Shown here: positions 13,675 through 33,524 of the stretch, in pieces
Numbering within the stretch: the first letter of the stretch is position 1
How the letters are laid out: every line of letters starts with the position of its first letter
Virus record (IMG/VR): IMGVR_UViG_3300023237_001126
Location: 1-34,600 of that record
From: a virus
Length of the DNA: 34,600 nucleotides
Direction: 5' to 3' (one strand)
The notes under the pieces: generated by a model
Seen by the model: the letters and a program-made list of their open reading frames with translations, nothing else
The model's database searches: none
What the model was told of the DNA's origin: nothing
Program-made: the position numbers and the translations under genes

Positions 13675-13683
13675 AAAACGAAA

Positions 13684-13691
13684 AATAAATA
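13684..13691 (+). promoter_or_regulatory. Late-promoter-like octamer AATAAATA
   Basis: It lies 7 nt before the ATG at 13699 in a 24-nt gap. The surrounding AATAAATAACTTTATATG closely resembles the gp21 site (AATAAATAACTATATG). Confidence 0.55.
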
Positions 13692-13698
13692 ACTTTAT

Positions 13699-14160
13699 AT
13701 GAATGAAAAACCTTGGAGCTGGCGAATTAACCATCAACATGAAAATGGCAATGTTGATGCACAAGTAATATCGAGTGATGAAAAATCGTCTCTTTATTTA
13801 AGTAATGTACAACCCGGCTTAGCAGAATCCGTTACATCTCTATTAGAGAGCTCCTTTAAGTGGGGGTATAGCGAAAATGAGCAAGTCAGCTCACCTGAAA
13901 AACAGGCAGAGCTACACGCCTCAATTGATGAATTTCTAGATGGTGGGGATAATGATTTAAAATTGTTGGAACAGGTTGAAGAGAATAATAGGCTCATAGA
14001 GCAAATAAAGGATCTGACTGCAGCGAAAGCAGCCGGTCACACTTCTGCACCTGGTGCAGATATAACAGATGTAACAGAAACTGTAGAACCAAAACCTGAA
14101 CCAAAATCTATAAAATACAAAGCTAAGACAAAAGTAACCCCCGCTAAGGCTACCTCTTAA
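13699..14160 (+). CDS. Hypothetical protein (153 aa) with Lys/Pro-rich tail
   Basis: I do not recognise it. Residues 1-60 are a mixed domain (KPWSWRINHQHENGNVDAQV, SSLYLSNVQPGLAESV). Residues ~70-112 are helical and acidic (SIDEFLDGGDNDLKLLEQVE, RLIEQIKDLTAAKAAG), possibly a coiled coil. The last 35 are low-complexity with basic and Pro residues (EPKPEPKSIKYKAKTKVTPA). It has its own late-promoter-like octamer and sits between two glycosyltransferase genes, suggesting it is a late virion-related gene inside the cassette rather than an enzyme of it. Confidence 0.7.
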   Translation: MNEKPWSWRINHQHENGNVDAQVISSDEKSSLYLSNVQPGLAESVTSLLESSFKWGYSENEQVSSPEKQAELHASIDEFLDGGDNDLKLLEQVEENNRLIEQIKDLTAAKAAGHTSAPGADITDVTETVEPKPEPKSIKYKAKTKVTPAKATS

Positions 14161-14181
14161 AATAGCTTATAATTATATATT

Positions 14182-14994
14182 ATGCTAGATTTTAGCCGTA
14201 TATCTTTTATTTGTCATGTTAGAGTTGATACATATCTACGTGAAAAAAATATTAGAACAATATACGACTATTATAATAAACATACAAATGGTGAGTGTGA
14301 GTTTATATTTGTAGAAGACGATAAATCTCCTTTGCTATCTAAAATATTACCCCCTCCTTCAAATAATATTACGATCGATTTTATTAAGAACGATTGTGAG
14401 GTACATAAATCATTTTGCTATAATAGGGGAGCTAAGTTAGCAACGAGGGAAATTTTTGTATTTTTAGATGTAGATGTAATATTAGACACTCGCTTATTAT
14501 TTGAAACTATAAGCGAAGCTATAGAGAGAGGCAGCTTAGAATGCTTGATAGGGTATAACGGTATAGCTATATACTGCAATACTTCTGCTGAACAGGAATT
14601 CTTAAAATCTCTAGACATAGAGGATTTATACTCTAAAATAAATGACTTGCCATTAAAGACGATGGCTCAAAATCAATTTGCAACAGTAGGTAATACTCAA
14701 GCGGTTGGAGGTTGTTTATGTATGACCAGAGAATCATTTAAAAAAATAAATGGATTTAATCCTTTATTTAAAGGTTGGGGGTATGAGGATAATGAAATTA
14801 TATCTAGAGCAAATAAGTTAGGTCTGCAGGTTTGTAAAAGCTCTATAGCGAATAATTACCTATTCCATCTCCAACATGAGACTGTGTCTATAGATAAGAG
14901 TAAACACAAATTCTATAAAAATAACGGCGACATTGTAAATAATGTAGAGTGTATGTCTCGAGAGGAATTAGAACAATATATTAAGAAATGGTAA
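14182..14994 (+). CDS. GT2-type glycosyltransferase (galactosyltransferase-like)
   Basis: GT-A features are clear: ISFICHVRVDTYLREKN, FIFVEDDKSP, CYNRGAKLATREIFVFLDVD with the DVD metal motif at 96-98, and the acceptor/base motif INGFNPLFKGWGYEDNEI, which is typical of the polymerising and galactosyltransferase-like GT2 subgroup (GW-x-x-ED). GGCLCMTRESF precedes it as usual. The length of 270 aa is normal for a single-domain enzyme. Substrates are unknown. It overlaps the following GT10-like gene by 7 nt, so they are likely translated together. Confidence 0.85.
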   Translation: MLDFSRISFICHVRVDTYLREKNIRTIYDYYNKHTNGECEFIFVEDDKSPLLSKILPPPSNNITIDFIKNDCEVHKSFCYNRGAKLATREIFVFLDVDVILDTRLLFETISEAIERGSLECLIGYNGIAIYCNTSAEQEFLKSLDIEDLYSKINDLPLKTMAQNQFATVGNTQAVGGCLCMTRESFKKINGFNPLFKGWGYEDNEIISRANKLGLQVCKSSIANNYLFHLQHETVSIDKSKHKFYKNNGDIVNNVECMSREELEQYIKKW

Positions 14995-15830
14995 CTATAA
15001 ATATTAGAGACAAAAACTTCGGAGGTGAGGAATCCTCATGTCATAAAGCTACGAATGATTATGTTAAGTGGGATTTCGGAAATAAAGCAATTTCTAATTC
15101 CTGCTTTATTACAGATATGTGCTTAGATGATGTACATAAGGCCTCAGGGGTAAAGCGAAAGATTGCTTGGATCTTAGAGCCACGAGCTATACACCCGCAT
15201 ATATATGATTGGATAGAGAAAAATAATAGACTTTTTGATTACGTATTAACATATGATACTTATTTAATTAATAAGGGAGAAAATTATATATATTACCCAC
15301 ATGGTCGATGTTGGATTACTAGGAAAAAATCTGAAAATGAATATTTTAAGATAGCAAACGGAAAAACAAAGATGTGTTCTATAATTGCCTCAGGTAAGAA
15401 TGACACAGTCGGTCATAAGTTGCGGCATGAAGTTATTTTTAATAATTATTCAAATATAGATGTATTCGGTCATGGTTATAAAAGTGTAGAATTTAAAGAA
15501 GAAGCATTAGAGGATTATAGATTTTCAGTAACTATAGAGAATTCTAAACAGCCAGGGTACTGGACTGAAAAAATTGTAGATTGCTTTGCAACTCAAACTA
15601 TTCCTATTTTTTGGGGTGATGAATCTGTATTTGATCACTTTGACTCATCTGGTATAATTACATTTAATACCATATATGGGCTAGAAGAAATATTAGACAA
15701 TATAAATGAGAACGGGGAAGAGATATATCGCTCTATGCAGCCAGCGATCGCTCATAATTTAAAATGTGTAGAGCAATATAGAATACCAGAAGATTGGATT
15801 TATAAAAATTACAATTTTTTAATGAATTAA
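14988..15830 (+). CDS. GT10-like fucosyltransferase
   Basis: The C-terminal half carries the GT10 (alpha-1,3/4-fucosyltransferase) signature: FSVTIENSKQPGYWTEKIVD followed by CFATQTIPIFWGDESVFDHF. The upstream KIAWILEPRAIHP, DYVLTYDTYLI and IYYPHGRCW fit the GDP-sugar enzyme's N-terminal lobe. GT10 enzymes use GDP-fucose. A GDP-mannose 3,5-epimerase encoded 3.5 kb downstream would make GDP-L-galactose or GDP-gulose, so the donor may be a GDP-L-sugar other than fucose. At 280 aa it is near the short bacterial forms. No membrane anchor is visible. Confidence 0.82.
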   Translation: MVTINIRDKNFGGEESSCHKATNDYVKWDFGNKAISNSCFITDMCLDDVHKASGVKRKIAWILEPRAIHPHIYDWIEKNNRLFDYVLTYDTYLINKGENYIYYPHGRCWITRKKSENEYFKIANGKTKMCSIIASGKNDTVGHKLRHEVIFNNYSNIDVFGHGYKSVEFKEEALEDYRFSVTIENSKQPGYWTEKIVDCFATQTIPIFWGDESVFDHFDSSGIITFNTIYGLEEILDNINENGEEIYRSMQPAIAHNLKCVEQYRIPEDWIYKNYNFLMN

Positions 15831-15835
15831 AATTT

Positions 15836-16630
15836 ATGAATATTGGTATAATTGGTTTAGGGGCTGTAGGTACTGCAAATTCGAATGGATTTAAGCAGGT
15901 TGGTAATACAGTAAAAGAGCATGATATCAAGATGGGGACATCTATTACTGATATTATAAATACAGAACTAGTATTTATATGTGTGCCAACTCCCGCAGCA
16001 GAAGACGGCTCATGCGACGTTAGTATAGTGCATACAATTATTAATGATCTTAATGATCTTAAATATCAAGGCGTCATTGCAATTCGTAGTACATGTTATC
16101 CGGGATTTACACAATCAATTATAGATAAATATAAAGATCTCCATATTGCATTTGCTCCAGAATTTTTACGAGAGCGATTTGCCGATGAGGACTTCTTACA
16201 CAATCATAATTTATTAGCGGTCGGTACTGAAGATGAAGAGATTTTTAATTTAATTACTCACGCACATTCATTTTTACCAAAAAATACTGTAAGGCTCACA
16301 CCTACAGAAGCTGAATTATTAAAGTATTATAATAATGTATACGCCGCATCACGAGTTGTATTTGCAAATATAATGTATGAGCTTTGCTCCAAATTAAATT
16401 GTAATTATACGGAAATTAAAAATGCATATATAAAGACTGGTAAAGCAACCGATCTATATCTTGATGTAAATGATAATATGAGAGGGTATGGTGGAATGTG
16501 TTTACCTAAGGATACTAAAGCTATAGCTGATCTTTTATCGAAGCATAATTTAGACTTCGATTTAATTAAAGCGATCGATAGTGACAATTCGAAGCTCAAG
16601 ACTACAGTATTCCCCGGGATGCGTTCATGA
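15836..16630 (+). CDS. Shortened UDP-glucose/GDP-mannose dehydrogenase family protein
   Basis: The family oxidises a nucleotide sugar to its uronate in two NAD-dependent steps. The N-terminal Rossmann motif IGIIGLGAVG, VFICVPTPA, IAIRSTCYPG and FAPEFLRE are all present, as is the catalytic GGMCLPKDT (Cys222, Lys225, Asp226). The usual C-terminal sugar-nucleotide-binding domain is missing: the protein ends ~40 residues after the catalytic Cys, giving 264 aa against about 390-450. It overlaps the next gene by 4 nt (ATGA) with no sign of a decayed 3' end, so the short form may be natural. Whether it is active alone, or with a partner, is unclear. Confidence 0.85.
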   Translation: MNIGIIGLGAVGTANSNGFKQVGNTVKEHDIKMGTSITDIINTELVFICVPTPAAEDGSCDVSIVHTIINDLNDLKYQGVIAIRSTCYPGFTQSIIDKYKDLHIAFAPEFLRERFADEDFLHNHNLLAVGTEDEEIFNLITHAHSFLPKNTVRLTPTEAELLKYYNNVYAASRVVFANIMYELCSKLNCNYTEIKNAYIKTGKATDLYLDVNDNMRGYGGMCLPKDTKAIADLLSKHNLDFDLIKAIDSDNSKLKTTVFPGMRS

Positions 16631-17577
16631 AAAATATACTTGTAACAGGTGCGGCTGGTTTTATGGGCAGCCATTTATGCGATCGCCTCCTTGCTGATGG
16701 TCATAATGTAATTGGTGTAGATAATTTATTCAGGGGTAGTATAAATAACTTACAGATGGGAAATCCTGCATTCGAATTAGATCAATGCGATTTATCATAC
16801 GATAGTAGCAGATTGCATCTCCGACAGATTATCCAATCAGAAAAAATTGATACAGTATTTCATTATGCTGCAATCAATGGAACGGAATATTTTTATGATA
16901 TACCGTATGAGGTTTTTAGGGATAATAATCAGATAACAAGAAATGTTCTAGGTGCATTAGCTGGTACGACTGTTAAAAAGTTTGTATATACATCCTCTTC
17001 TGAAGTTTATGGTGATGAGCCAATTATACCAACTCCAGAAACTAGTCCAATACTGCTTAATATATTTTCAGATAGAGACAGTTATGCTAGCTCGAAAGCT
17101 ATGGGGGAATTTGATGTAAAATTTTCTTGTGAGAGGTCTAATATATCCTATGTTATTCTGAGACCATTTAATACATACGGGTCGAGAATGGTAGATACTA
17201 AATATGGTCAAGTTATTCCTGAATTTATTAAAAGAGTATCTGATGATGCGAAATTTACTATTATAGGGGACGGGACTCAGCAGAGAAGTTTCTGCCATAT
17301 TAGTGATCATGTACGATTGGTAGTATCAGGTATTAATAAAATGCATAACGAGATTATAAATATTGGCAATCAAGAAATGATTACAATTAATAACTTAGCT
17401 GAGCGGATACATAAAATAGCCAATAGAGAATTTAAGCCGAAATATTTAACAGGGCGAGAATACGATACTCAACATAGACAGCCATGTATATCTAAAATAA
17501 ATAAATTATATCCAGAGTATAAATTTGCCAATTTAGATAAAGAGCTTAATATATTATATAATGAACCTACTTATTAG
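16627..17577 (+). CDS. NAD-dependent nucleotide-sugar epimerase/dehydratase (extended SDR)
   Basis: Extended SDR with TGAAGFMGSHLCDRL (GxxGxxG, 7-15), VDNLFRGSINNL, FHYAAINGTEYF, the Ser active-site strand FVYTSSSEVYGD, and the catalytic YASSK (Tyr153, Lys157). FNTYGSRM, IIGDGTQQRSFCHISD and INIGN follow in the standard order. Members with this pattern include UDP-glucose 4-epimerases and UDP-glucuronate decarboxylases. Because the gene directly follows a UDP-glucose-dehydrogenase relative, a UDP-uronate substrate is plausible but not shown. It overlaps the next gene by 17 nt. Confidence 0.88.
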   Translation: MKNILVTGAAGFMGSHLCDRLLADGHNVIGVDNLFRGSINNLQMGNPAFELDQCDLSYDSSRLHLRQIIQSEKIDTVFHYAAINGTEYFYDIPYEVFRDNNQITRNVLGALAGTTVKKFVYTSSSEVYGDEPIIPTPETSPILLNIFSDRDSYASSKAMGEFDVKFSCERSNISYVILRPFNTYGSRMVDTKYGQVIPEFIKRVSDDAKFTIIGDGTQQRSFCHISDHVRLVVSGINKMHNEIINIGNQEMITINNLAERIHKIANREFKPKYLTGREYDTQHRQPCISKINKLYPEYKFANLDKELNILYNEPTY

Positions 17578-17956
17578 TATACCAGTTGGAGACGCCTTTG
17601 ATAAATTGTCTATATTAGAAATTAAAAGAGATCATGCAGATAATAATACTCCACAAAAAACGAATATAGAGAATGAGATTAATTCTCTCAGCGGTGATTT
17701 AAATCATTTATGGGAAGGTGGAGGTGATAGACTTCTCAATCTGTATGATGAGTTGAAATCGACTAATTTAGAGATGTGGGTCATTGAAGATTCTATTAGA
17801 CTAAAGGAGAAAGCTAAACAATTTGATTCAGAGTTCATTCAGCTAGCTAGAGATGTATATTACACTAACGATAGACGGTGTAGAGAAAAAAATAAGATAA
17901 GTAAGTTAATGGGGAGCAATTTAGTTGAAGAGAAAATTTACGAAAGTTATGAGTAA
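17561..17956 (+). CDS. DUF6165-like protein
   Basis: The N-terminal LLISIPVGDAFDKLSILEIK matches the start of the DUF6165 family, small proteins encoded in bacterial polysaccharide loci and having no known activity. The rest is helical (DELKSTNLEMWVIEDSIRLK, QFIQLARDVYYTNDRR), ending in a basic stretch. The length of 131 aa suits the family. It overlaps both neighbours (17 nt upstream, 8 nt downstream), so it belongs to the glycan operon. Confidence 0.65.
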   Translation: MNLLISIPVGDAFDKLSILEIKRDHADNNTPQKTNIENEINSLSGDLNHLWEGGGDRLLNLYDELKSTNLEMWVIEDSIRLKEKAKQFDSEFIQLARDVYYTNDRRCREKNKISKLMGSNLVEEKIYESYE

Positions 17957-18683
17957 AGTTTGTTTAATATATCAGCCAGCAGGTATAGGTGATATATTAT
18001 TTTGCCAGGGAATTGCGAAGAATTTTGTAGATCGTGGATATAGAGTTATATTTCCAATTTTAAATCGGTTGATGTTTTTACAGGATTATATTAATAACCC
18101 CGGTGTAGAGTTTGTAGACGAAGCCTTAGAGTTTGAATATAAAGATAAGTATAATCAATCTATAGGGTCCTATAATGAAGATAATTTTTCATTTGTAAAT
18201 ACAGATACATCAACTAGCCAGATACCCTCAAATAGCCCTAATGGTATATATATAATGCCATCAAAATATGAACATATAGGTCTAAATTTTAGAGAGTGGT
18301 CATCGGGATTCAATCTAATACGAAATAAGGCTAGGGAGGATAAACTTTTCTATGACATTTTAAAGCTAACCGATAAAGATGAGTATGCAGTATGTAATAA
18401 CAAGTACGGTACGCCACCAAACACTATTGAATACCCAATCCCAGAAATTGAATCTAAACGAAGAATAGTACATATGGAATTTATAGATGGTACTAATATT
18501 ATGGACTGGTGTAAGGTGCTTGAACGGGCAAATGGTATAGTAACTGTGGATACCTGTATATTATATATTATGACGATGCTGAAAATAACACATTATGATA
18601 TGTACTACTGCTATCTGCGACCTGGTTGGACTAAAGAGCAATATAATGAAATTACACCCTTTGCTTGGAAATATTTAAACTAA
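17949..18683 (+). CDS. GT-B/GT9-like glycosyltransferase-related protein
   Basis: The N-terminus VCLIYQPAGIGDILFCQGIA has the 'GxGDxL' loop seen in ADP-heptose-transferase-like (GT9) and related GT-B proteins. The C-terminal half has RIVHMEFIDGTNIMDWCKVL and ANGIVTVDTCILYIMTMLKI, resembling the GT9 segment in which the acceptor/donor loop carries D-(T/S) after a short helix. I chose ATG 17949 over the in-frame TTG at 17925: it gives 244 aa and the usual 8-nt overlap. It might be an inactive relative rather than an enzyme. Confidence 0.55.
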   Translation: MSKVCLIYQPAGIGDILFCQGIAKNFVDRGYRVIFPILNRLMFLQDYINNPGVEFVDEALEFEYKDKYNQSIGSYNEDNFSFVNTDTSTSQIPSNSPNGIYIMPSKYEHIGLNFREWSSGFNLIRNKAREDKLFYDILKLTDKDEYAVCNNKYGTPPNTIEYPIPEIESKRRIVHMEFIDGTNIMDWCKVLERANGIVTVDTCILYIMTMLKITHYDMYYCYLRPGWTKEQYNEITPFAWKYLN

Positions 18684-18690
18684 TAAAGTT

Positions 18691-19302
18691 ATGGGAGATT
18701 TAAGTATATTTGACTTATCACATATTAAGAATACTAATAATATAAATGTATTAGTAGAAACAGGCACATTTAAAGGTGACGGTACCTTGTTTGCAAAGTC
18801 TGTTTTTGATACAGTACACTCTATAGAGATAGATGAAGAGCTTTATAATGACGCTACCGAAAGATTTAAAGATGAGCCAAATATTAATATATATTTAGGA
18901 AATTCAGTAGACATATTACCTAGAGTATTACCCGCTATTACTGAAAATGTATTATTTTGGCTGGATGCTCACTTCCCAGGTGCAGATTGTCATAAAAAAG
19001 CATATGATAGTGAGTCGGATAAAGTAAAAAGAATTCCACTCACTGAAGAGTTAAAGCTAATCTGCTCCTTAAGATCTGGTAACGATGTAATTATTATAGA
19101 TGATTTATGGTTATATGAGGATGGTCCGTTCGCATGGGGATCGTGGGATGATCACTCCGCAACGTGTGGGTTTAATGTTACTAGAGAAGACCTAATGAAG
19201 GGAGAGACTCTTGATGAGAGTATAGAATTGCTCTCCAATACGCATAATATCCGACGGCAGTACGACCATCAGGGATATCTCATCTGCACACCTATTATTT
19301 AA
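18691..19302 (+). CDS. SAM-dependent methyltransferase-like protein
   Basis: A class I Rossmann methyltransferase pattern: motif I is NVLVETGTFKGDGTLFA, motif II ends in the acidic VHSIEIDEELYNDA, and motif IV-like NVLFWLDAHFPGADCH and VIIIDDLWLYED follow. The 'ETGTFKGDGT' loop is typical of methyltransferases found in sugar and polysaccharide loci. The substrate may be a glycan hydroxyl. It lies 7 nt after the GT-B-like gene and 1 nt before the GME gene, so it is in the same operon. Confidence 0.72.
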   Translation: MGDLSIFDLSHIKNTNNINVLVETGTFKGDGTLFAKSVFDTVHSIEIDEELYNDATERFKDEPNINIYLGNSVDILPRVLPAITENVLFWLDAHFPGADCHKKAYDSESDKVKRIPLTEELKLICSLRSGNDVIIIDDLWLYEDGPFAWGSWDDHSATCGFNVTREDLMKGETLDESIELLSNTHNIRRQYDHQGYLICTPII

Positions 19303-19303
19303 T

Positions 19304-20299
19304 ATGAAAGACAATCAAACAAAAACAGCTCTGGTATTAGGGGCAGGTGGATTCATCGGGAATCACCTTGTTAATAGATTAAAGGATGAAGGTTATTGGG
19401 TTCGGGGGGTAGATTTAGTACCACCAGAATATGAAAAAATATCCTCCGCAGATGAATTTATTATAGGTGATTTAAGAGATACCGGATTTACATCTGTATG
19501 TATGACCTCCCCAAATCAAATATCCAAGACTGCAGGAGGCTTTGATGAAGTATACCAATTAGCGGCTGATATGGGTGGCGCTGGGTATATATTTACTGGA
19601 GATCATGACGCAAATGTGATGCATAATTCTGCTACAGTTAATCTTAATGTAGCTCACCACTCAAATCTGCTGGGGGTAAAGAAATTATTTTACAGTAGCT
19701 CTGCATGTATGTATCCTGAGTATAATCAACTTGATCCTAATAACCCTAATTGCTCAGAAGATTCTGCATATCCAGCCGCTCCAGATTCAGAGTATGGATG
19801 GGAAAAACTGTTTAGTGAGCGACTGTATTTAGCTTATGCTAAAAACTATAAATTGAATGTAAGAATCGCGAGATTTCATAACATATACGGCCCTAAGGGT
19901 ACATATAAGGGAGGGAGAGAAAAGGCTCCGGCTGCAATATGCAGAAAGGTAATTACTGCTACAGATACTATCGAGATTTGGGGTGACGGGAAACAAACTA
20001 GATCATTTTTATATATAGACGAATGTATTGAAGCTATTCGAAGAATTATGGAGAGTGAGGTAACGGAACCACTCAATGTTGGCTCGGATGAAATGGTAAC
20101 AATAAATGAATTAGTAAATATAGCTGAGACCGTAGAAGGTAAACAGTTACGTAGAGAATATAAACTAGACGCACCACGGGGAGTAGCTGGTAGAAATTCC
20201 TGCAATAAACTAATTATGGAAAAACTTGGTTGGGCCCCAAACTTTTCGCTTGAAAAAGGTATAGGTATAACCTATAATTGGATAAAGAACCAATTATGA
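19304..20299 (+). CDS. GDP-mannose 3,5-epimerase-like SDR
   Basis: GME converts GDP-D-mannose to GDP-L-galactose (and GDP-L-gulose). Signature segments match that enzyme closely: GAGGFIGNHLVNRL, YWVRGVDLVPPEYE, YQLAADMGGAGYIF, the SSSACMYPE loop with Cys135, the catalytic Tyr164-GWE-Lys168, RFHNIYGPKGTYKGGREKAP, and IWGDGKQTRSFLYIDE. The length of 331 aa is normal for the family. In the cassette it would supply a GDP-L-sugar, perhaps for the GT10-like transferase. Its stop overlaps the next start by 4 nt (ATGA). Confidence 0.92.
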   Translation: MKDNQTKTALVLGAGGFIGNHLVNRLKDEGYWVRGVDLVPPEYEKISSADEFIIGDLRDTGFTSVCMTSPNQISKTAGGFDEVYQLAADMGGAGYIFTGDHDANVMHNSATVNLNVAHHSNLLGVKKLFYSSSACMYPEYNQLDPNNPNCSEDSAYPAAPDSEYGWEKLFSERLYLAYAKNYKLNVRIARFHNIYGPKGTYKGGREKAPAAICRKVITATDTIEIWGDGKQTRSFLYIDECIEAIRRIMESEVTEPLNVGSDEMVTINELVNIAETVEGKQLRREYKLDAPRGVAGRNSCNKLIMEKLGWAPNFSLEKGIGITYNWIKNQL

Positions 20300-20889
20300 A
20301 ATTAACAAATATTCCAGTATATGACGGAGAAATGATCCACGATCGCTTTGCGTATAAATACTTCCGAGAAAATACATCACCGTTAGGCAATATTGTAGCT
20401 TTTAGAGCTCCAATGGATGTACCCGTACATAATATGATTGATCTGGAGGATGTGCTTGAAGAGGATACTATTACTAGTAGAGATGCCATTAATTTTTGTT
20501 GGGAAATACCCAACCTTTGCGCACTCGGCGCTGTAGCATTTCAAAGATTATTTAATACTCATATAGCATCAATTTTATCTTCTAAAATAATAAATAAGCC
20601 TATTGCTGTAGATGGTGATGACCTAATGGTTCCAGAAAAGTTTACAGGGCATGACGGCGTTCAATATGACGAAGGTAAGTGTAGTGTTTCTATTACATAC
20701 TCAAAATACGACGTCGCATTAGGACATACGGGTATTAATGTTGTTGCTGGTACAAAGGCACCAGGATTTGCATATTCTACTAATATGAATGATGAGCAAT
20801 GTGAAGAATTTATGCGTCTATGTATTGAGCAGTTTTACTTTATTTTAGGAGGCCTTTTTACTGCTACGACTAAAATTATAATAAAATGA
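20296..20889 (+). CDS. DUF366-like protein
   Basis: I chose ATG 20296, which overlaps the GME stop, over a TTG at 20278. The protein (197 aa) shows the pattern I associate with DUF366: an N-terminal IPVYDGEMIHDRFAYKYF, then IVAFRAPMDV, NMIDLEDVLEEDTI, an internal FQRLFNTHI, a VDGDDLMV strand, and CSVSITYSKYDVALGHTGIN. The family has no settled biochemical function. I recall, without being able to check, that DUF366 proteins have been linked to phage 7-deazaguanine DNA modification; FolE and QueD in this window make that relevant. It is followed by the gp62-like gene with a 4-nt overlap. Confidence 0.6.
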   Translation: MKLTNIPVYDGEMIHDRFAYKYFRENTSPLGNIVAFRAPMDVPVHNMIDLEDVLEEDTITSRDAINFCWEIPNLCALGAVAFQRLFNTHIASILSSKIINKPIAVDGDDLMVPEKFTGHDGVQYDEGKCSVSITYSKYDVALGHTGINVVAGTKAPGFAYSTNMNDEQCEEFMRLCIEQFYFILGGLFTATTKIIIK

Positions 20890-27113: not shown

Positions 27114-28289
27114 ATGGCTTGTAATATTACACCGGTATCTGCGTTCCAGACAACAAATCTAAATAATAAGATTGATACATTCAATCGATTAGCAGATAGA
27201 ATTGTTCGATCTTTAGGAGCGCCTCTCGTTCAAGTTGAACTACATCAAGATCAATTATTTGAAAATATCTCTATTGCGGCTGAGATGTTTTCAAAATTTG
27301 CTGGTTATACGGAAGAGTATTTGGTATTTGACTCTAATTTATATGAAGCAAATGTAGGCTTACGGTTAGATCATTTGTTTACATTAACTAATCCTACATT
27401 AACTATCCAGGATAAAGTGGATAATAAAATAACTGCTCCTGAAGCAGGATATTACTTTGAAGATAGATCTACTATGTATATAGCTACTTCTACAATACCC
27501 GCTACTACATTTTCCAGCGTATCGGCTCTGAGTGCGATATTTGATGAGGGTATATTTCAACATCAAATATTTGACGATTTGACATATACTAGTGTTATTA
27601 CAGCTTTTGCTGCTACACCTAGTACTAGTACTATACCGATATCGTCTCACTTTATAGAATCATATGTAACAAAAAGAACAAGATCTGGAGATGAGATAAC
27701 TCCAGATTCTGAAACCCGCTCTAATAATATGTTCGATTATGATCTTCTAGATTATAGAAAAGTTATTGCTGTCAGTAACTTCGAGGAAGGTTCTTCTACT
27801 GGCATAAATACTCTATTTACAATAGAGCAGACTATGGCGCAACAAACATATTTTTCTTATGCTATGGGTAATAATGGTTTCGATCTAGTATCTTGGTATA
27901 CTTTAAAGGAGTGGATGGAAATGAGAGAAAAATTATTAGCATTAAAAAGATCATTTAAATTTGATGAAAGAACTCAAATTCTCCAAATATACCCCGAGCC
28001 TAAAAATACGAGATTTTACGGAGTTATCTCCTGTTATGTCGAAAGACCTATCAGAGATATTATCAAAGAACAATGGGTATATCAATATGCACTAGCTTTA
28101 TGTAAGATAACTTTAGGGCAAGTTAGAGGTAAATTTGGTAATATAACTCTCTTCGGGGGTCAGACATTTAATGCTACTGACATAATGACTGCTGGAATCT
28201 CAGAAAAAGAAACTCTAGAGACTAAGTTGTATGAAGGCGCATCTCCGGGGTTTGGAGACGCAGATCCAATTTGCTTTCTTGTTGGTTAA
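27114..28289 (+). CDS. gp13: Neck protein, T4 gp13-like
   Basis: gp13 and gp14 form the neck that seals the filled head. The first ~80 residues match gp13 style: LADRIVRSLGAPLVQVELHQ, DQLFENISIAAEMFSKFAGY (the 'LGxPxxxVxxxxxQxxxxIxxA' pattern). The C-terminal third also fits: WVYQYALALCKITLGQVRGK, FGNITLFGGQTFNATDIM, and a terminal helix with acidic residues. At 391 aa it is longer than T4 gp13 (309 aa). The ATG at 27114 follows a weak TTAAATAG box. A gp14 homologue was not recognised in the window. Confidence 0.75.
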   Translation: MACNITPVSAFQTTNLNNKIDTFNRLADRIVRSLGAPLVQVELHQDQLFENISIAAEMFSKFAGYTEEYLVFDSNLYEANVGLRLDHLFTLTNPTLTIQDKVDNKITAPEAGYYFEDRSTMYIATSTIPATTFSSVSALSAIFDEGIFQHQIFDDLTYTSVITAFAATPSTSTIPISSHFIESYVTKRTRSGDEITPDSETRSNNMFDYDLLDYRKVIAVSNFEEGSSTGINTLFTIEQTMAQQTYFSYAMGNNGFDLVSWYTLKEWMEMREKLLALKRSFKFDERTQILQIYPEPKNTRFYGVISCYVERPIRDIIKEQWVYQYALALCKITLGQVRGKFGNITLFGGQTFNATDIMTAGISEKETLETKLYEGASPGFGDADPICFLVG

Positions 28290-28353: not shown

Positions 28354-28671
28354 ATGATAGGAAATGAAGATACAAAATTAATGATGGAGGCTTGGAAGAA
28401 GTATAAGGACGAATGTGAGGAAACATCATCTAATACCCTACTCTCAAAGGCTACTGTAGATCCAAAATCTTACGAATTGAGACTAATGAAGATGTATGGG
28501 TTGGATTGGGACGATATACAAGAGGAGTGGGATGAATATGTGGGGTTTATATATCCCATAGATGAAGTGGGAGTAGTTGAGTCAGTTCCGGAAGAGGTCA
28601 CTGGTAGAGACTTAAAGCAGTTGATTAATATATTCCAATCCGATGCTCCAGAGAATATAGATACAAATTAA
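28354..28671 (+). CDS. Small acidic protein with putative prohead-targeting N-terminus (105 aa)
   Basis: I do not recognise the body of this protein. The N-terminus, MIGNEDTKLMMEAWKKY, resembles that of two nearby small proteins (MHNNDVELIWEA; INDTDTDLIYEA). Each ends its tag in x-E-A at residue 11-13, close to the T4 gp21 cleavage rule [L/I]-x-E|. Here the site would be MME|A, with Met at the key position, so the fit is weaker. The body is strongly acidic (LDWDDIQEEWDEYVGF, ESVPEEVTG). This would suit a DNA-mimic-like or internal head protein, but that is inference. An exact late promoter precedes it. Confidence 0.7.
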   Translation: MIGNEDTKLMMEAWKKYKDECEETSSNTLLSKATVDPKSYELRLMKMYGLDWDDIQEEWDEYVGFIYPIDEVGVVESVPEEVTGRDLKQLINIFQSDAPENIDTN

Positions 28672-28679
28672 ATAAAATT

Positions 28680-28985
28680 ATGCACAATAATGACGTAGAA
28701 TTAATATGGGAAGCTTTATCATCCTCACAATATGCTGGTACAATGGCATCTCTAATGAGCACACCTTGTGAGTTTACGATTGAAATAAGTTATACCCCAG
28801 ACATGGACTATGATGGGAATGAAATTTCCAGAGTAGAGGGTAATCTATTTAAAGGTGATGAATTTTTAGAGAGATTATATGGATCTGAACTTGAAGACGC
28901 TATAGATAAATTAGAGTCTGAGTGCCCAGATAATATTATTGATAGGGACTCTCAAAATGCGATCGCTGGCAGAACTACTTATTAA
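28680..28985 (+). CDS. Small acidic protein with putative prohead-targeting N-terminus (101 aa)
   Basis: I do not recognise the body of this protein. The N-terminus MHNNDVELIWE|ALSSS contains a canonical-looking gp21 site (Ile-Trp-Glu|Ala, cut after residue 11). The rest is acidic and beta-rich at first (CEFTIEISYTPDMDYDGNEI), then helical (FLERLYGSELEDAIDKLE). It has no Shine-Dalgarno. It starts 8 nt after the previous gene, and its stop overlaps the next ATG by one base (TAATG), so these small genes form an operon. Confidence 0.7.
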   Translation: MHNNDVELIWEALSSSQYAGTMASLMSTPCEFTIEISYTPDMDYDGNEISRVEGNLFKGDEFLERLYGSELEDAIDKLESECPDNIIDRDSQNAIAGRTTY

Positions 28986-29323
28986 TGGTAACATTCAGGC
29001 AATATATTATGGGACCGATTAATGAATCATGCAGCTCTCCTGCTTTCTTTAGAGCAAAAAAGTTATTACTATCTGCTTTACCTTATATCCCTAGAAAATT
29101 TAACAAAAAAGTAAAGATTTGGGAAGATACTCTAAACTCCCCTAAACTAGTAAGGTCGAAGATCAATATACATTATATAGCAGCAGATATAATAGATACT
29201 TTAGGCCCAGGTACTCGTCGAGTTTTTCCAAAGATAATAGGGAATGATATATATACTTTAGCAAGAGCAGTATCTTCTAAATACAAGCCACGGCCAAAGA
29301 CTGACCCTGATAATGATGCCTAA
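28985..29323 (+). CDS. Small basic protein with putative prohead-targeting N-terminus (112 aa)
   Basis: The N-terminus MVTFRQYIMGPINE|SCSS resembles T4 internal-protein targeting peptides, which I recall as starting MKTYQEFIAE and being cut by gp21 after Glu; the site here would be Ile-Asn-Glu|Ser, cut after residue 14. The predicted mature part is rich in Lys/Arg (FFRAKKLLLSALPYIPRKFN, VSSKYKPRPKTD), as is common for DNA-bound internal head proteins. The body is otherwise unrecognised. It overlaps the next gene (gp4) by 11 nt. Confidence 0.7.
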   Translation: MVTFRQYIMGPINESCSSPAFFRAKKLLLSALPYIPRKFNKKVKIWEDTLNSPKLVRSKINIHYIAADIIDTLGPGTRRVFPKIIGNDIYTLARAVSSKYKPRPKTDPDNDA

Positions 29324-29777
29324 GAAAAGAAAAAAGCCATCTACACAATATAAGCAAGGTATATTTAAACCAAAAAATTCTGATAAATTTGATGGCACAG
29401 CTGCAAAATATAGAAGCTCATATGAATTAAAATTTTTTAGATGGTGTGATGATAATATAAATGTACAAAAGTGGGGATCGGAAAATGTAGTAGTCCCTTA
29501 TTTGAACCCACTTACTAATAAAGTTTCTCGGTATTTTGTAGATAATTTTATAGTCTTAACGGAAGGGTGTAATACAAAAAAATATCTTATAGAAATTAAG
29601 CCAAAACGCCAAACAAGGCCACCATGTGTAAATAGATATAGGAATAATAAAAACCTCATATATGAAACAAACATGTGGGAGCAAAATCAGGCGAAGTGGT
29701 CTGCTGCAGATAAATGGGCTAAAAAACACGGTGCAGAATTTATCATATTAACTGAAAAGGAACTTTTTAATAAATAA
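29313..29777 (+). CDS. gp4: Head completion protein, T4 gp4-like nuclease fold
   Basis: T4 gp4 is needed to finish DNA-filled heads and belongs to a PD-(D/E)XK-like (TnsA-N-like) fold. The pattern is clear: a basic N-terminus with KQGIFKPKNSDKFDGTAAKY, the acidic SSYELKFFRWCDD, VQKWGSENVVVPYLNPLTNK, YFVDNFIVL (catalytic-type Asp) and YLIEIKPKRQTRPP (E-x-K). The C-terminal WSAADKWAKKHGAEFIILTE completes the fold. Length (154 aa) equals that of T4 gp4 within a few residues. Two consecutive ATGs (29313, 29316) are possible starts. Confidence 0.88.
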   Translation: MMPKKRKKPSTQYKQGIFKPKNSDKFDGTAAKYRSSYELKFFRWCDDNINVQKWGSENVVVPYLNPLTNKVSRYFVDNFIVLTEGCNTKKYLIEIKPKRQTRPPCVNRYRNNKNLIYETNMWEQNQAKWSAADKWAKKHGAEFIILTEKELFNK

Positions 29778-29827
29778 TTATAATTATTATTTTTAATTAA
29801 CGGTAGTTAATAATGATTTATACTAAA

Positions 29828-29835
29828 TATAAATA
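29828..29835 (+). promoter_or_regulatory. Late promoter, exact TATAAATA
   Basis: An exact octamer after the gp4 gene. A start 6 nt past its end would fall at about 29841, inside the open frame described next, so the relation between this promoter and that gene's start is unclear. Confidence 0.6.
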
Positions 29836-30116
29836 TTATAAACGATACCGATACAGACCTTATATATGAAGCGTATGCCGATAGATTGTTAACTGAAGGG
29901 TTAATCGATAAATTACAAGCTGCATTAGATGTTGCAGGTCTAGAGCCTACTATAGGTACTGGTGCAGATGCCGTCAATACTGCAATATCAGCCTTGAGAG
30001 CGATAGCAGCAAAAGAGCCAGATGATCGTAATAAGCATATAATTAATGCTGGTATATCTGCGATATCTCTTATACCATTTGGAGATGTAGCAAAGATGTT
30101 AAAAATAAACATATAA
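29835..30116 (+). CDS. Small protein with putative prohead tag and hydrophobic toxin-like segment; start uncertain
   Basis: A conventional caller would start at TTG 29886 (76 aa). But the frame is open upstream to 29814, and the codons from ATT 29835 read INDTDTDLIYE|AYADRL. This aligns with the tags of the 28354 and 28680 products and holds a gp21-type site (Ile-Tyr-Glu|Ala). I therefore extend the gene, with a non-standard ATT start or an error in the read. The body, GTGADAVNTAISALRAI then HIINAGISAISLIPFGDVAK, recalls the membrane-active or linker segments of bacterial polymorphic toxins; this is from memory. A role as an injected protein is inference. Confidence 0.5.
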   Translation: MINDTDTDLIYEAYADRLLTEGLIDKLQAALDVAGLEPTIGTGADAVNTAISALRAIAAKEPDDRNKHIINAGISAISLIPFGDVAKMLKINI

Positions 30117-30154: not shown

Positions 30155-30838
30155 ATGGGATTTCGTTTGATTACTGATGAGGCAGCTGCCACACTCGATG
30201 AGTTTGAGTATATTTTTGAGGAGAAAGGCCGTAATGAGCCAAGATCATTGTATATACAAGGACCTTATATGGTAGCAGATGTAGTTAATAGAAATAAGCG
30301 AAAGTACCCCATACACGAAATGCGTAGGGAAGTCGATAGATATCGAGAGGAAATGATTAATAAAAAGCGGGCGATGGGAGAGTTAAATCACCCACAGTCA
30401 CCTGATTTAGATTTAGAGCGTGCCTGCCACATGGTAGAGAATTTAAAAGAAGAGAAGGAAGGTGAAAAATATATATTTACCGGTAGATCGAAAGTACTAA
30501 CAACGCCATGCGGGAAAATTGTACAATCATTAGTTAACGACGGTGTGTCTGTTGGAATGTCATCCAGAGCATTAGGTCAATTAAATGAGAAAGTGACCTA
30601 TAACGAAGTTAGTCAGATGAGATTGGTTGCAGTCGATTGCGTTGCAGACCCATCATTTACAGAAGCTTTTGTAAATGGTATATTAGAATCTAAGGAATGG
30701 GTATTAAAAGATGATGGGCAGTTTGAAGAAGATTATGACAAATTTAGCAAGTCTTTAAGGAAGCTACCTAAGGGATCGGTTGCGACAAAAGACCATATTA
30801 CAGAACAAATTATAAGTTTTATAAAAAATATTCACTGA
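30155..30838 (+). CDS. gp21: Prohead core protease, T4 gp21-like
   Basis: gp21 is the serine protease that matures the prohead by cutting after [L/I]-x-E. The catalytic His is in GELNHPQSPD (His79); the nucleophile is in DGVSVGMSSRALG (Ser136 or Ser137); and VAVDCVADPSF supplies the third conserved segment. YIQGPYMVADVVNRNKRKYP is the typical N-terminal part. Length is 227 aa against 212 in T4. Candidate self-cleavage sites are YIFE|E (after Glu22) and GILE|S near residue 176. It precedes the core genes in the order 21-67-22-23; in T4 the gp67 gene lies before 21. Confidence 0.95.
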   Translation: MGFRLITDEAAATLDEFEYIFEEKGRNEPRSLYIQGPYMVADVVNRNKRKYPIHEMRREVDRYREEMINKKRAMGELNHPQSPDLDLERACHMVENLKEEKEGEKYIFTGRSKVLTTPCGKIVQSLVNDGVSVGMSSRALGQLNEKVTYNEVSQMRLVAVDCVADPSFTEAFVNGILESKEWVLKDDGQFEEDYDKFSKSLRKLPKGSVATKDHITEQIISFIKNIH

Positions 30839-30879: not shown

Positions 30880-31035
30880 ATGGACGCACAATCTAGAATA
30901 CACGTAAAGAAATTGATAGGGGCTATTCTAGATAAGAATTATAATAGCGCTCAAAAGCACCTGCAAGAAGCTGTTGATACAAAAATTAAAAACAGAATTA
31001 AGCTTGCAAGTAAAAATAAACTTTTTGACAAATAA
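30880..31035 (+). CDS. gp67: Small prohead core protein, T4 gp67-like (51 aa)
   Basis: A short gene between gp21 and gp22. The peptide MDAQSRIHVKKLIGAILDKN continues with YNSAQKHLQEAVDTKIKNRI and a basic end. The layout matches T4 gp67 (LIEAIKSNDLVAARKLF, EAMAARTVDLI...), though without the acidic tail of T4 gp67. HLQE|A is a good gp21 cleavage site, as expected for a core peptide that is degraded during maturation. Its stop overlaps the gp22 ATG by one base (TAATG), and tandem late promoters lie just upstream. Confidence 0.7.
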   Translation: MDAQSRIHVKKLIGAILDKNYNSAQKHLQEAVDTKIKNRIKLASKNKLFDK

Positions 31036-31973
31036 TGGATCCGAAAAAAATTAAACAACAGGGGAGTGATATTAAGCGAATATTAAAGGAGGCCACTAAT
31101 GGTCTATTAGACTCTGAATCGCTGGCAGCTATCGAAGAAGCCTTCAATCATGAGGTCGAAGAGAGGTCGGTATTGAGAGAGTCAATTGCCTTAAATATTC
31201 AAGATGAGGAGTATTCTACTAAATTGATCGGAGTACTTGAGGCAGTTGATCGTGATAATGCTAAAAAGCTCATTAAGGTTGTCGAATCTGTAGATAAGAG
31301 TAATGCTCGCAAGCTTAAAAAAGTAGCCCAGAAGTTTAAGACAGCTCTAAATTCAGATGCTACTGCCTTTAAGGAATCTACTATTACTCATATAAGTGAT
31401 TACTTAGATCTGTATATTGAAGAGAATATTCCGCAATCGGCAATTAATGAAGCTGTAAAAAATAAACAGGCGATGTCTGTACTAAGCGCTTTACGTGATC
31501 AACTATCCATTGGTACATCTCTATTAGATGAGTCAGTTAGAGCTGCCGTCCTAGACGGTCGAAGCCAGCTGGACACATTGACTGAATCTCTTAAAGCTAA
31601 AGATGAGCAATTAACTTTAGTAAATGAAAAGCTGAGAGCAGTTTCTGCTAATTTACTTCTCGAACAGAGGAGTGCAGGTCTACCAGCTAAAAAGAAAGAA
31701 TATTTAAAGAGAGTACTCAATAACAAGTCGCCGGAATTTATACAAGAAAATTTCGACTATACTTTAAAGCTATATGAGCGGAAAGATAATGAACATCGCT
31801 CAACTTTAAAGGAGGAGGCTATGACTAGCAGAACAACGCAGGAAGATACTGTAGAGACTACTAGATTCCGTCACCCAGCTAATAGAGAAAAACTAATTAA
31901 CGAGCAAGCCTCTTTAACTCGATCGAGAGAAGCAATTAACCCATATTTGGAACAATTGGCTAAATACAACTAA
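31035..31973 (+). CDS. gp22: Prohead scaffold (core) protein, T4 gp22-like
   Basis: Mostly helical and charged, as expected for the scaffold, with HEVEERSVLRESIALNIQDE, KLIGVLEAVDRDNAKKLIKV, then RSAGLPAKKKEYLKRVLNNK near the C-terminus, a conserved portion of the family. The sequence is rich in possible gp21 sites: ILKE|A, AIEE|A, AINE|A, LLDE|S and LINE|Q. This agrees with its breakdown to small peptides in T4. At 312 aa it is longer than T4 gp22 (269 aa). It lies directly before gp23 with a 57-nt leader between them. Confidence 0.92.
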   Translation: MDPKKIKQQGSDIKRILKEATNGLLDSESLAAIEEAFNHEVEERSVLRESIALNIQDEEYSTKLIGVLEAVDRDNAKKLIKVVESVDKSNARKLKKVAQKFKTALNSDATAFKESTITHISDYLDLYIEENIPQSAINEAVKNKQAMSVLSALRDQLSIGTSLLDESVRAAVLDGRSQLDTLTESLKAKDEQLTLVNEKLRAVSANLLLEQRSAGLPAKKKEYLKRVLNNKSPEFIQENFDYTLKLYERKDNEHRSTLKEEAMTSRTTQEDTVETTRFRHPANREKLINEQASLTRSREAINPYLEQLAKYN

Positions 31974-32030: not shown

Positions 32031-33524
32031 ATGAAAAATAACTCATACATCGACGGGAATAAGGCAAAAGCGCTTCTTGAAAAGTGGGCTCCAGTATTGG
32101 ACTACACTTCAAAGAACATTGCACCTATTGAGGATGAACGTACTCGCACGAACACAGCGATCATGCTCGAGAACCAAGAAGACTGGTGTCAAGACCCGGA
32201 TGGAGGCCTCCTTATGGAGACTTCGTATGCCGGTTCTAAGGCAGGTGGTGCTTTTGGTTCAAGCCAGCAGGGAACTGCTGGTGTAAAGAGTGGTGATAAC
32301 TATGCTTCAGGTGACGCACGTCTTCCGAAGATTCTCATCCCGATGATTCGTCGAACTTTCCCTGAATTGATAAGTAATGAGATCGTTGGAGTTCAACCAA
32401 TGAGCGGACCTGTCGGACTTGCCTTCGCTTTGCGATACAAGTACAACAGTGAAACTTTAGGTGATACTGTCATCGACGGTAAGTCAGGCGCTGCGGATAA
32501 CCGTGCCGGCAGACAAACCGCCCCAAACTTTGGTTCCGGTAACGGAAAAAATGAGCTTGGGTGGCAACATCTTGATACTCGCTTTACGGGCGTGTCTACA
32601 AATCAACTTTCAGGTGATGGAAATTACTTCAATTTTTCAGCTCAGGATCAAGGCGTTGCCGAGATTCTTAAGAACTGGGAAATTAGTAACAAAATCCCTC
32701 AGGTTGATATCTCTTTTGAGAAGACCGCTGTTGAAGCAGGTACTAGACGCCTCGGTGCACGCTGGAGCGTTGAACTGGAACAAGACCTCAAGAACATGAA
32801 CGGTATCGATGTTGATGCTGAGATCACAAACGCCATGGCGTACGAGATCCAAGCTGAAATCGACCGCGAAATGATTATCCGGATGATACAGACTGCGCTT
32901 AATGCCGGTTATGGTTCTGGATTTTCTATCTGGTCCCCAGCTTCTGCTGATGGCCGATGGATTGTTGAGAGAAATAGAGATTTCTATCAAAGACTTATCG
33001 TCGAAGCGAACCGAATTGCTACACGTAACCGTCGTGGTGCTGCTAACTTTATTGTTTGTACGCCACGTGTTGCCGCTATTCTCGAAATGCTTCCGGAGTT
33101 CCAATGGGCTCCGGTACAAGGCAACGTGAATACACAGCCAGTTGGGATCGCCAAAGTCGGTAATCTTGGTGGACGTTTTAATGTCTATCGCGATACTCGT
33201 ACAGAGGCTCAAAACGCTAGCGTTTATGGAGATCAAGGATATGGAAACCAGCCTAATGGTACTGCCTACACAGAGGGTGTAGAATATGCATTGCTAGGCT
33301 ATAAGGGTCCAGAATTCTATGATACCGGTATTATATACTGTCCATATATTCCAGTGATGGTCCAACGTACTATCGGTCCGCAAGATTTTGCGCCTCGTGT
33401 CGGTCTTTTGACTCGATACGGTGTTGTAGATAATATCTTCGGTGCAGATTTGTACTACCACGTTATCATTGTTCAGGGATTAGGAGCGGCTTTTACGCCT
33501 GCTTCACAGAGTGTATACTTCTAA
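32031..33524 (+). CDS. gp23: Major capsid protein, T4 gp23-like
   Basis: gp23 forms the hexameric head lattice. The start contains LLEKWAPVLDYTSKNIAPIE and RTRTNTAIMLENQE, a family hallmark. LPKILIPMIRRTFPELISNE, VGVQPMSGPVGLAFALRYKY, RRLGARWSVELEQDLKNMNG and EIDREMIIRMIQ are further strong signatures. The propeptide site is probably LLME|T after Glu63, close to Glu65 in T4. At 497 aa it is slightly shorter than T4 gp23 (521 aa). G+C content and codon choice (many cgt, ggt and C-ending codons) are visibly higher than in neighbouring genes, as expected for the most highly expressed gene. Confidence 0.97.
   Translation: MKNNSYIDGNKAKALLEKWAPVLDYTSKNIAPIEDERTRTNTAIMLENQEDWCQDPDGGLLMETSYAGSKAGGAFGSSQQGTAGVKSGDNYASGDARLPKILIPMIRRTFPELISNEIVGVQPMSGPVGLAFALRYKYNSETLGDTVIDGKSGAADNRAGRQTAPNFGSGNGKNELGWQHLDTRFTGVSTNQLSGDGNYFNFSAQDQGVAEILKNWEISNKIPQVDISFEKTAVEAGTRRLGARWSVELEQDLKNMNGIDVDAEITNAMAYEIQAEIDREMIIRMIQTALNAGYGSGFSIWSPASADGRWIVERNRDFYQRLIVEANRIATRNRRGAANFIVCTPRVAAILEMLPEFQWAPVQGNVNTQPVGIAKVGNLGGRFNVYRDTRTEAQNASVYGDQGYGNQPNGTAYTEGVEYALLGYKGPEFYDTGIIYCPYIPVMVQRTIGPQDFAPRVGLLTRYGVVDNIFGADLYYHVIIVQGLGAAFTPASQSVYF

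Follow-up and report, generated by a model that had tools for sequence, protein, structure and literature searches.

Four tagged genes beside the prohead protease gene

Why should unrelated small proteins, encoded side by side among the head genes of a T4-like virus, begin with short peptides of a similar kind? The question is raised by IMG/VR record IMGVR_UViG_3300023237_001126, a 34.6-kb virus sequence that is probably a fragment, and of which positions 1 to 34,600 (the window) were analysed. Between its gp13-like and gp21 genes lie the genes of four small proteins, P1 to P4; below, 'residue P1' and 'residue P3' denote positions in a cleavage site, residue P1 being the Glu after which the cut would fall and residue P3 lying two before it. 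Each protein starts with a short tag ending in a candidate site for the prohead protease gp21. It is probable, in our judgement, that P1–P4 are internal head proteins of the T4 kind, targeted to the capsid, cut by gp21 and injected with the DNA, probably for counter-defence or takeover of the host. The capsid-targeting part of this reading draws on the recurrence of tags on unrelated bodies in the same genomic slot, an exchange of tags on the P4 body, a conserved Glu and Ile/Leu at the cleavage site, and the enrichment of T4-type tagged proteins in virions of cyanophage S-CREM2. That they act as injected effectors is plausible: T4 IPI, IPIII and Alt offer an analogy, and a GNAT acetyltransferase is among the cargo of relatives.

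P1 (105 residues, 28354..28671), P2 (101 residues, 28680..28985) and P3 (112 residues, 28985..29323) are encoded on the + strand by open reading frames (ORFs) that start with ATG, and codon usage ranks their frames above the other five. With the slash marking the predicted cut, their tags are MIGNEDTKLMME/A (28354-28389), MHNNDVELIWE/A (28680-28712) and MVTFRQYIMGPINE/S (28985-29026) respectively. P4 (about 92 residues, 29838..30116, + strand) begins with INDTDTDLIYE/A (29838-29870). By inspection, only ATT (29835) or ATA (29838) could serve as a start beside this tag; P4 either relies on a start codon of a rare kind or has lost its ATG recently. A second candidate site, LLTE/G, lies downstream in P4 (Glu ends at 29897). 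All four N-termini quoted in a preliminary description of this DNA were found, and P1, P2 and P3 are real ORFs. Its picture of four tagged unknowns between gp13 and gp21 stood for the tags and failed on two details: the run is interrupted between P3 and P4 by an untagged gp4-like head-closure nuclease with a TnsA-like N domain (29313..29777, + strand; PF08722 2.7e-16, phrog_218 1.2e-45), a neighbour rather than cargo, and P4 has two candidate sites instead of one. An [L/I]-x-E end is present in P2 (I-W-E/A) and P3 (I-N-E/S); P4 offers I-Y-E/A and L-T-E/G behind its odd start, and M-M-E/A of P1 is the weaker match that it had been said to be.

The bodies behind these tags are dissimilar, again as first described. 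Predicted mature P1 and P2 are acidic (isoelectric point, pI, 4.12 and 4.05, each with net charge −13), P3 is basic (pI 10.11, net +11), and P4, with the cut taken two residues before the end of LLTE, is hydrophobic and slightly acidic (grand average of hydropathy, GRAVY, +0.32; pI 5.07). A tblastn comparison over the examined loci gave no matches between the four bodies, and among those loci P1–P3 had relatives only in the same virus. No family was found for P1–P4 at a usable E-value in Pfam or PHROG, and these collections gave no body homology to IPI, IPII or IPIII, the T4 bodies not being compared pairwise directly. A profile search with P4 gave no match, and a scan of viral contigs with the body of the P4 homologue from the related locus L005 returned only itself. 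Matches of P3 to PDB sequences (antibodies and Rv1364c, E 0.026-0.8) were judged to be noise, and a pretoxin-like assignment of P4 was dropped because the three homologues had no Pfam match, even with the threshold relaxed to E 10. The structure model of P2 was unusable (predicted local distance difference test, pLDDT, 39.8), and an AlphaFold model of P4 from three sequences was mostly helical (pLDDT 59.2). As a guess, P1 and P2, being strongly acidic, could mimic DNA. An identical P1–P4 region is present in a longer contig, which speaks against an isolated assembly error; both contigs may come from one population.

Two tag classes and an exchanged tag

The tags fall into two classes. That of P3 has the layout of the T4 internal protein (IP) class, M-x-[TS]-F-x-x-[YF]...[LIV]xE. 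In the T4 genome (NC_000866) the corresponding N-termini are MKTYQEFIAE/A in ipII and ipIII and MKTFKEFTSTTTPVSTITE/A in ipI, with the cuts placed where we take them to be. The tags of P1, P2 and P4 ([I/M]NDTDTDLIYE/A) form a second class, which combines an acidic residue with L-I-x-E/A and differs from the IP tag in that an acidic residue or Asn stands where the IP tag has an aromatic. P3 has F4 and Y7 at the positions of the IPIII targeting residues Y4 and F7 (PMC9026906), and P1, P2 and P4 have no aromatic at position 4.

The P4 body is 62% identical over 77 residues to a homologue in relative L005, and 63% identical over 62 residues to another in contig G008, where the gene lies at one contig end, outside the gp13–gp21 interval. 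Both homologues begin with tags of the T4 class, MKTFKQYYGNQRLIQE/A in L005 and MITFKEYYQVNE/Q in G008. In an alignment of the three sequences the L005 site falls at the position of LLTE/G in P4, and the G008 site lies nearby across a short gap, which suggests that LLTE/G may be the working cut in P4. One body thus carries a tag of either class, with [LIV]xE at the end in each case, which speaks for a modular tag and for an equivalent role of the two classes.

The gp13–gp21 gap in related viruses

Searches of viral contigs with the window gp21 gave 18 related loci, and searches with gp23 gave at least 80 more, some contigs being in both sets. Both gp13 and gp21 were present in 58 of 98 sequences, with a gap of more than 600 bases in 31. 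The gaps held 44 ORFs besides gp4, or 32 after removal of redundancy. Under fixed patterns, tags were found in 13 of these 32 ORFs and in 53 of 1148 non-redundant ORFs elsewhere; the slot count is two short by eye, as the pattern misses two MKTFKQYFLE tags in locus L042 that have Phe at residue P3.

These two L042 tags stand on adjoining genes that both start MKTFKQYFLE/S and have unrelated bodies, one a GNAT acetyltransferase (PF13508, 3.8e-9), the other matching the C-terminal part of phrog_2579, 'ParB C-terminal domain' (2.3e-28). On the other strand of the same locus is MINDQNLIFEQY. Further slot tags seen by eye are those in L060, in L029 (MSNDIKSIFEKY), in G008 (MSNDSNLIFERY), in G010/L071 (MNKDTKLIFEAF), in L005/L021 (the same contig) and in L006 (MKTFKEFFKQYALQLVSE/S and MLTFNNFYLYRVINE/S). 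Tagged slot proteins of L087, L088 and L091 form one body family. Apart from the two L042 bodies, the eight tagged slot proteins that were scanned gave no Pfam or PHROG family above noise. Ten of about 17 non-redundant untagged slot ORFs were scanned against Pfam, and five matched (a desaturase, an FkbM methyltransferase, an SNase and two DUF723 proteins, one also with DUF4379) and five did not; that untagged ORFs are those of known function is therefore only half true. By inspection, an untagged lipoprotein- or spanin-like protein, with a hydrophobic N-terminus ending in Cys, follows gp13 in L042, L060, L029 and G008.

The gap changes its contents between relatives. L002-L004, L007 and L008 have no ORF of at least 40 residues in it besides gp4, L005 has the P4 homologue, L006 has two related tagged proteins and L009 has, by inspection, a GIY-YIG-like ORF. 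Judged from this gene content, the gp13–gp21 gap is a variable slot through which cargo turns over.

This turnover bears on the alternative that survives best, in which P1–P4 are packaged and cut for the sake of head assembly or DNA packing, like gp67 and gp68 or IPIII in its assembly role, and are not effectors in the host. Their genes do lie among head genes and adjoin gp21, P3 resembles a DNA-condensing protein in its small size and basic charge, and head assembly in T4 IPIII mutants runs at about half the normal rate (PMC9026906). A part of the core would, however, be conserved, whereas the slot contents turn over between close relatives and the bodies are unrelated, one of them an acetyltransferase. 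We consider a purely structural role unlikely. The turnover of the slot is of the kind seen in an arms-race locus, and for this reason we favour counter-defence or takeover acting at once after entry.

Strictness of the cleavage site and tagged proteins in virions

Second-class tags were sought in IMG/VR viral contigs with a DNA pattern encoding MNxD[ST]xxLIFEAY, which has a chance of about 1.5e-13 per position at an assumed 40% GC. It matched 84 stretches; the 80 listed contained 83 matches, and 81 bodies behind them fell into 14 single-linkage families. Opening residue P1 to K, N, Q, H, E or D again gave 84 stretches, with the same 80 listed. Only Glu was therefore seen at residue P1, where the same base model predicts it in 14% of such codons. 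A scan with residues P4 to P2 left free, and residue 3 restricted to K or N, gave 82 stretches (80 listed) with 75 distinct matches, 74 of them with ORFs of at least 60 residues. Residue P3 was I (58) or L (14) in 72 of these 74, and Pro in the other two, which are one protein type; for a random codon the expected share of I or L is about 19%, and many of the 74 belong to one large family and are not independent events. Residue P2 varied (F, A, Y, S, N, G, L), with F in 61. This pattern of fixed and free residues matches [L/I]-x-E, which we take to be the cutting rule of T4 gp21.

Published virion data exist for cultured cyanophages whose proteins carry T4-type tags. A strict pattern built on T4 residues 4, 7, 8 and 10 matches 6 of 219 S-CREM2 proteins, and 5 of these 6 were detected in virions (PMC10665884), as against 47 of the other 213 (Fisher p 0.003), the N-termini of the detected proteins having been seen before the pattern was fixed. 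The five are the S-adenosylmethionine (SAM) hydrolase gp6, gp13, the kinase gp14, gp136 and the cytidylyltransferase gp154; gp175 (55 residues) was not detected (PMC10665884). With the paper's 32 structural proteins left out, the difference was 5/6 versus 23/181 (p 0.0003). The tag would lose its meaning as a virion marker if it were as frequent in non-virion proteins, as the preliminary description had recognised. In S-CREM2 this was not so (1 of 167 undetected and 5 of 52 detected proteins tagged); S-SZBM1 was mixed, with one of three tagged proteins detected. The tagged S-SZBM1 protein found in virions is again a cytidylyltransferase (140), and tagged 191 and 192 were not detected (PMC9146016). 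An NMNAT has likewise been reported in S-SCSM1 virions (PMC9602691). Cytidylyltransferase homologues in P-RSM6, S-CREM1 and P-TIM40 start with a tag, and those of S-ShM2 and ACG-2014d show the end of one (TFISE/A and KKFSDFLSE/A), their first residues lying outside the stretch seen. A Cas9-like S-CREM2 protein, gp12 (OR473000; L143:7704-10313, − strand), was also reported in virions; it has RFASFMAE/A at residues 18-25, matched by a looser pattern only (one of 14 proteins so matched, 7 of them detected), and its annotated start may be too early.

An N-terminal motif of this kind could alternatively serve, uncut, in docking or regulation and be no marker of virion proteins. Tags occur outside the head region as well (the 53 of 1148 above), two of the three tagged S-SZBM1 proteins went undetected in the virion data (PMC9146016), and no published cleavage of a LIFEAY-class tag came to light. 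Against this stand the invariant Glu and, separated from it by one variable residue, I or L, an arrangement shared with the sites of T4 gp21, the exchange of a T4-type tag on P4 homologues and the detection of tagged proteins in S-CREM2 virions (PMC10665884). Taken together these make a docking peptide quite improbable.

Chance controls and spread of the tags

In 1310 non-redundant ORFs, [LIM]xE ended at residue 10 in 40 cases and at residue 11 in 36, compared with 10-32 at other positions from 6 to 59. Control motifs were not raised at residues 10 and 11 ([LIM]xD 20 and 10, [LIM]xK 17 and 23, [LIM]xQ 12 and 5); gp22 N-termini add to the peak. The tag pattern followed 23 of 3406 internal Met residues, and in a coarser preliminary count the figures were 30 of 2000 for N-termini and 23 of 6225 for internal Met. 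Hydrophobic-x-Glu is a short motif and a common one ([LI]xE, the loosest pattern, lies within the first 18 residues of 36 of 219 S-CREM2 proteins) and P1 is a weak match, but that four were merely picked out by chance is very improbable in view of the positional peak, the internal-Met rate, the residue-P1 scan and the near-identical tags on unrelated neighbours.

Some genomes carry many tagged genes. IMGVR_UViG_3300046698_000515 has seven LIFEAY-type ORFs in two tandem runs (three at L194:4555-5545 and four at L203:2734-4564); several overlap end to start by 1-4 bases, and the five that were compared are mutually unrelated. G009 (229.7 kb) has nine LIFEAY-type and several T4-type tagged ORFs, the latter including M15/endolysin-like and cytidylyltransferase-like proteins (both below the Pfam cut-off), DUF6267 and a Zn_protease-like protein. 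Among 20 tagged contigs chosen for size, all of which may be fragments, gp21 (PF03420) was found in 10, including all 8 larger than 110 kb. The sharing of one tag by unrelated bodies is seen both in the L042 pair and in the 14 families behind LIFEAY. Ten more tagged proteins, from G002, G009 and G010, were compared with PHROGs and two matched, all to families of unknown function.

Three side observations concern further tag-like N-termini. At 170652-173664 of G009 (L129) there is a run of T4-type tagged genes (cytidylyltransferase-like, DUF6267 and Zn_protease-like). A matching neighbourhood in Methylophilales phage Melnitz (L142:6872-11535) has tag-like N-termini too. Three tandem paralogues in G002 (109653-111596; L111) start with MDPIFEAYKQIL or MDPIFEVYKQIL, which may be the same kind of tag in shortened form.

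A model for the tagged proteins

We propose that the N-terminal peptide binds the prohead core, gp22 and its partners, so that the protein would be enclosed as gp23 assembles round it. Cutting by gp21 after [L/I]-x-E would free the mature body inside the head, from which it would leave with the DNA into the host. Two interchangeable tags, the T4 IP class and the L-I-x-E/A class, would be in use, the gp13–gp21 slot would turn its cargo over, and further tagged proteins would be encoded elsewhere in related genomes. Once in the host, the mature bodies would most likely act immediately, countering its defences or starting takeover, as T4 IPI, IPIII and Alt do. In T4 the IP tag alone packs foreign proteins and is removed proteolytically, a type IV restriction enzyme is blocked by IPI, and there is one E. 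coli strain on which the phage requires IPIII (PMC9026906, PMC3012670, PMC9391042). Asp at position 10 of IPIII is reported to permit targeting while inhibiting processing (PMC9026906). Of the packaged effector set put forward in the preliminary description, the capsid-targeting, gp21-cleavable tags are supported by recurrence, tag swap, Glu and I/L conservation and S-CREM2; the injected effector is plausible by analogy.

Several observations weigh against this model. The tag frame of P4 has no ATG, GTG or TTG before TTG 29886, and a T4-late-promoter-like motif, TATAAATA, at 29828-29835 just upstream of P4 would, at the start distance that we assume, begin the RNA after the ATA. P1 has Met at residue P3, P1 and P2 are acidic and the T4 IPs basic, and gp22 is named in the window from its position. 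The slot enrichment (10 of 28 when this virus is left out, p 6e-7) is descriptive, the patterns having been partly shaped after the slot proteins were seen, and 58 of the 81 second-class matches belong to one family. Virion data were not found for this virus or for any second-class tag, and tblastn against isolates gave no match for P4, for a tagged 300-residue family in L161, for L042_349 or for L088, the first three being second-class queries. Looser patterns shrink the S-CREM2 excess (7/14 detected, p 0.025; 14/36, p 0.02), and S-SZBM1 virions hold one of three strictly tagged annotated proteins (PMC9146016). The S-CREM2 authors also caution that non-structural proteins may persist in the preparation after CsCl (PMC10665884), a caution voiced likewise for S-SCSM1 (PMC9602691).

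Among known systems, the nearest is the T4 capsid-targeting sequence (CTS) of IPI, IPII and IPIII, which shares with the window the layout of the P3-type tag, unrelated bodies behind a shared tag, and the presence of gp21 and a gp22-like ORF. It differs in its bodies, to which no similarity was found and which are not acidic like P1 and P2, and in location, the T4 IP genes lying beside e and 57 and those described here in the gp13–gp21 slot. T4 gp24, grouped for this comparison with the T4 gp22 and gp21 N-termini, begins MAKINELLRE/S and shares with MNKDSHLIFE/A its spacing, a hydrophobic pair, one free residue and Glu at 10. The gp24 propeptide is 10-20 residues long (PMC5694885); gp24 is a capsid vertex protein, whereas the LIFEAY tag stands on at least 14 unrelated body families. 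Cyanophage enzymes with T4-type tags, namely a SAM hydrolase, an APH-like kinase and an NMNAT-like cytidylyltransferase (S-CREM2 gp6, gp14 and gp154; S-SZBM1 140), were all found in virions by the respective authors. These are recognisable as enzymes, unlike P1–P4, and 'capsid targeting' occurs nowhere in PMC10665884. Ejection proteins of phiKZ and SPN3US are similarly packed in the head, where a gp21-like prohead protease cuts them after x-x-E, and their ejection is presumed, but many have far longer propeptides (79 to >120 residues) and the motif is AxE/SxE, not [LI]xE (PMC5694885). Polyvalent proteins (Iyer et al. 2017) are likewise predicted effectors injected with phage DNA, but have 2 to 15 domains where P1–P4 are single small bodies with a cleavable-looking tag (PMC5512222).

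With less confidence, we lean towards a wider interpretation, a dual capsid-import code in which the T4 IP tag and MNxD[ST]xLIFEAY with its variants both send unrelated proteins into the prohead to be cut by gp21, making up a large set of injected effectors recognisable from the sequence by itself, with cargo exchanged between environmental T4-like viruses by swapping of tags and slots. One 74-kb contig encodes seven proteins with the second tag and one of 230 kb encodes nine. The principle is known; the second tag class was not found described. 'LIFEAY' was absent from the open-access literature searched, subscription papers being outside that scope, so that an earlier description is possible. 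In the same literature 'capsid targeting' occurred with 'cyanophage' in one review and with metagenomic phage work in none.

For all but a few model phages, little is known of what enters the host together with the DNA. Provided that our reading of the tags is right, the N-terminus suffices to predict packaged proteins, both in isolates and in viruses that have not been cultivated. This would yield a short list of candidates for acting at the first moment of infection, in anti-restriction or host takeover, would explain the NMNAT-like transferase, SAM hydrolase and kinase in cyanophage virions, and would provide new peptides for loading proteins into T4-type capsids.

Neighbouring genes

The gene order is gp15 (start 24125; PF16724), a portal-like ORF (start 25273; named by inspection), a gp13/head-tail adaptor-like gene (27114..28289, + strand; phrog_211 2.2e-23), which is the upstream border of the cargo slot, P1, P2, P3, the gp4-like gene, P4, gp21 (30155..30838, + strand; PF03420 3.6e-27, phrog_207 9.2e-54), a 51-residue ORF (start 30880; named from position), a gp22-like scaffold gene (31035..31973, + strand; between gp21 and gp23) and gp23 (32031..33524, + strand), encoding the major capsid protein. 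The same genome thus has gp21 and, judged from position, gp22; gp21 is the presumed enzyme cutting the tags and the gp22-like scaffold their presumed binding partner. The gp22-like ORF gave no Pfam or PHROG family above noise, and its N-terminus contains RILKE/A. In gp23, GLLME/T aligns with FLTE/A of T4 (E65/A66), where the propeptide is 65 residues long (PMC9026906). LLME at the T4 cut position would mean that the window gp21 accepts L-x-E, if the site is conserved. Against the listed cyanophage capsid proteins (best 60 of 2495 records) the window gp23 shows about 31-34% identity. For the last 8.6 kb of the window no near DNA relative was found among phage isolates.

A copy of TATAAATA, presumably resembling a T4 late promoter, lies 25 nt upstream of P1 (28321..28328, + strand). 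The motif occurs 19 times in the window against 11.45 expected, and 19 was reached in 5 of 100 shuffles; as an argument that the cargo genes have late promoters it is weak.

A GTP cyclohydrolase I gene is present at 1966-2610 (− strand) and a 6-pyruvoyl-tetrahydropterin-synthase-like gene at 3644-4330 (+ strand), and a longer contig of the same virus has, by inspection, a possible QueE-like ORF (L105:2674-3507) that gave no Pfam match. These genes perhaps belong to a 7-deazaguanine DNA modification path, which, if present, would fit injected anti-restriction proteins. At 12838-20300 (+ strand) the window has, by inspection, a cluster of glycosyltransferase, sugar-nucleotide dehydratase and UDP-glucose-dehydrogenase-like ORFs.

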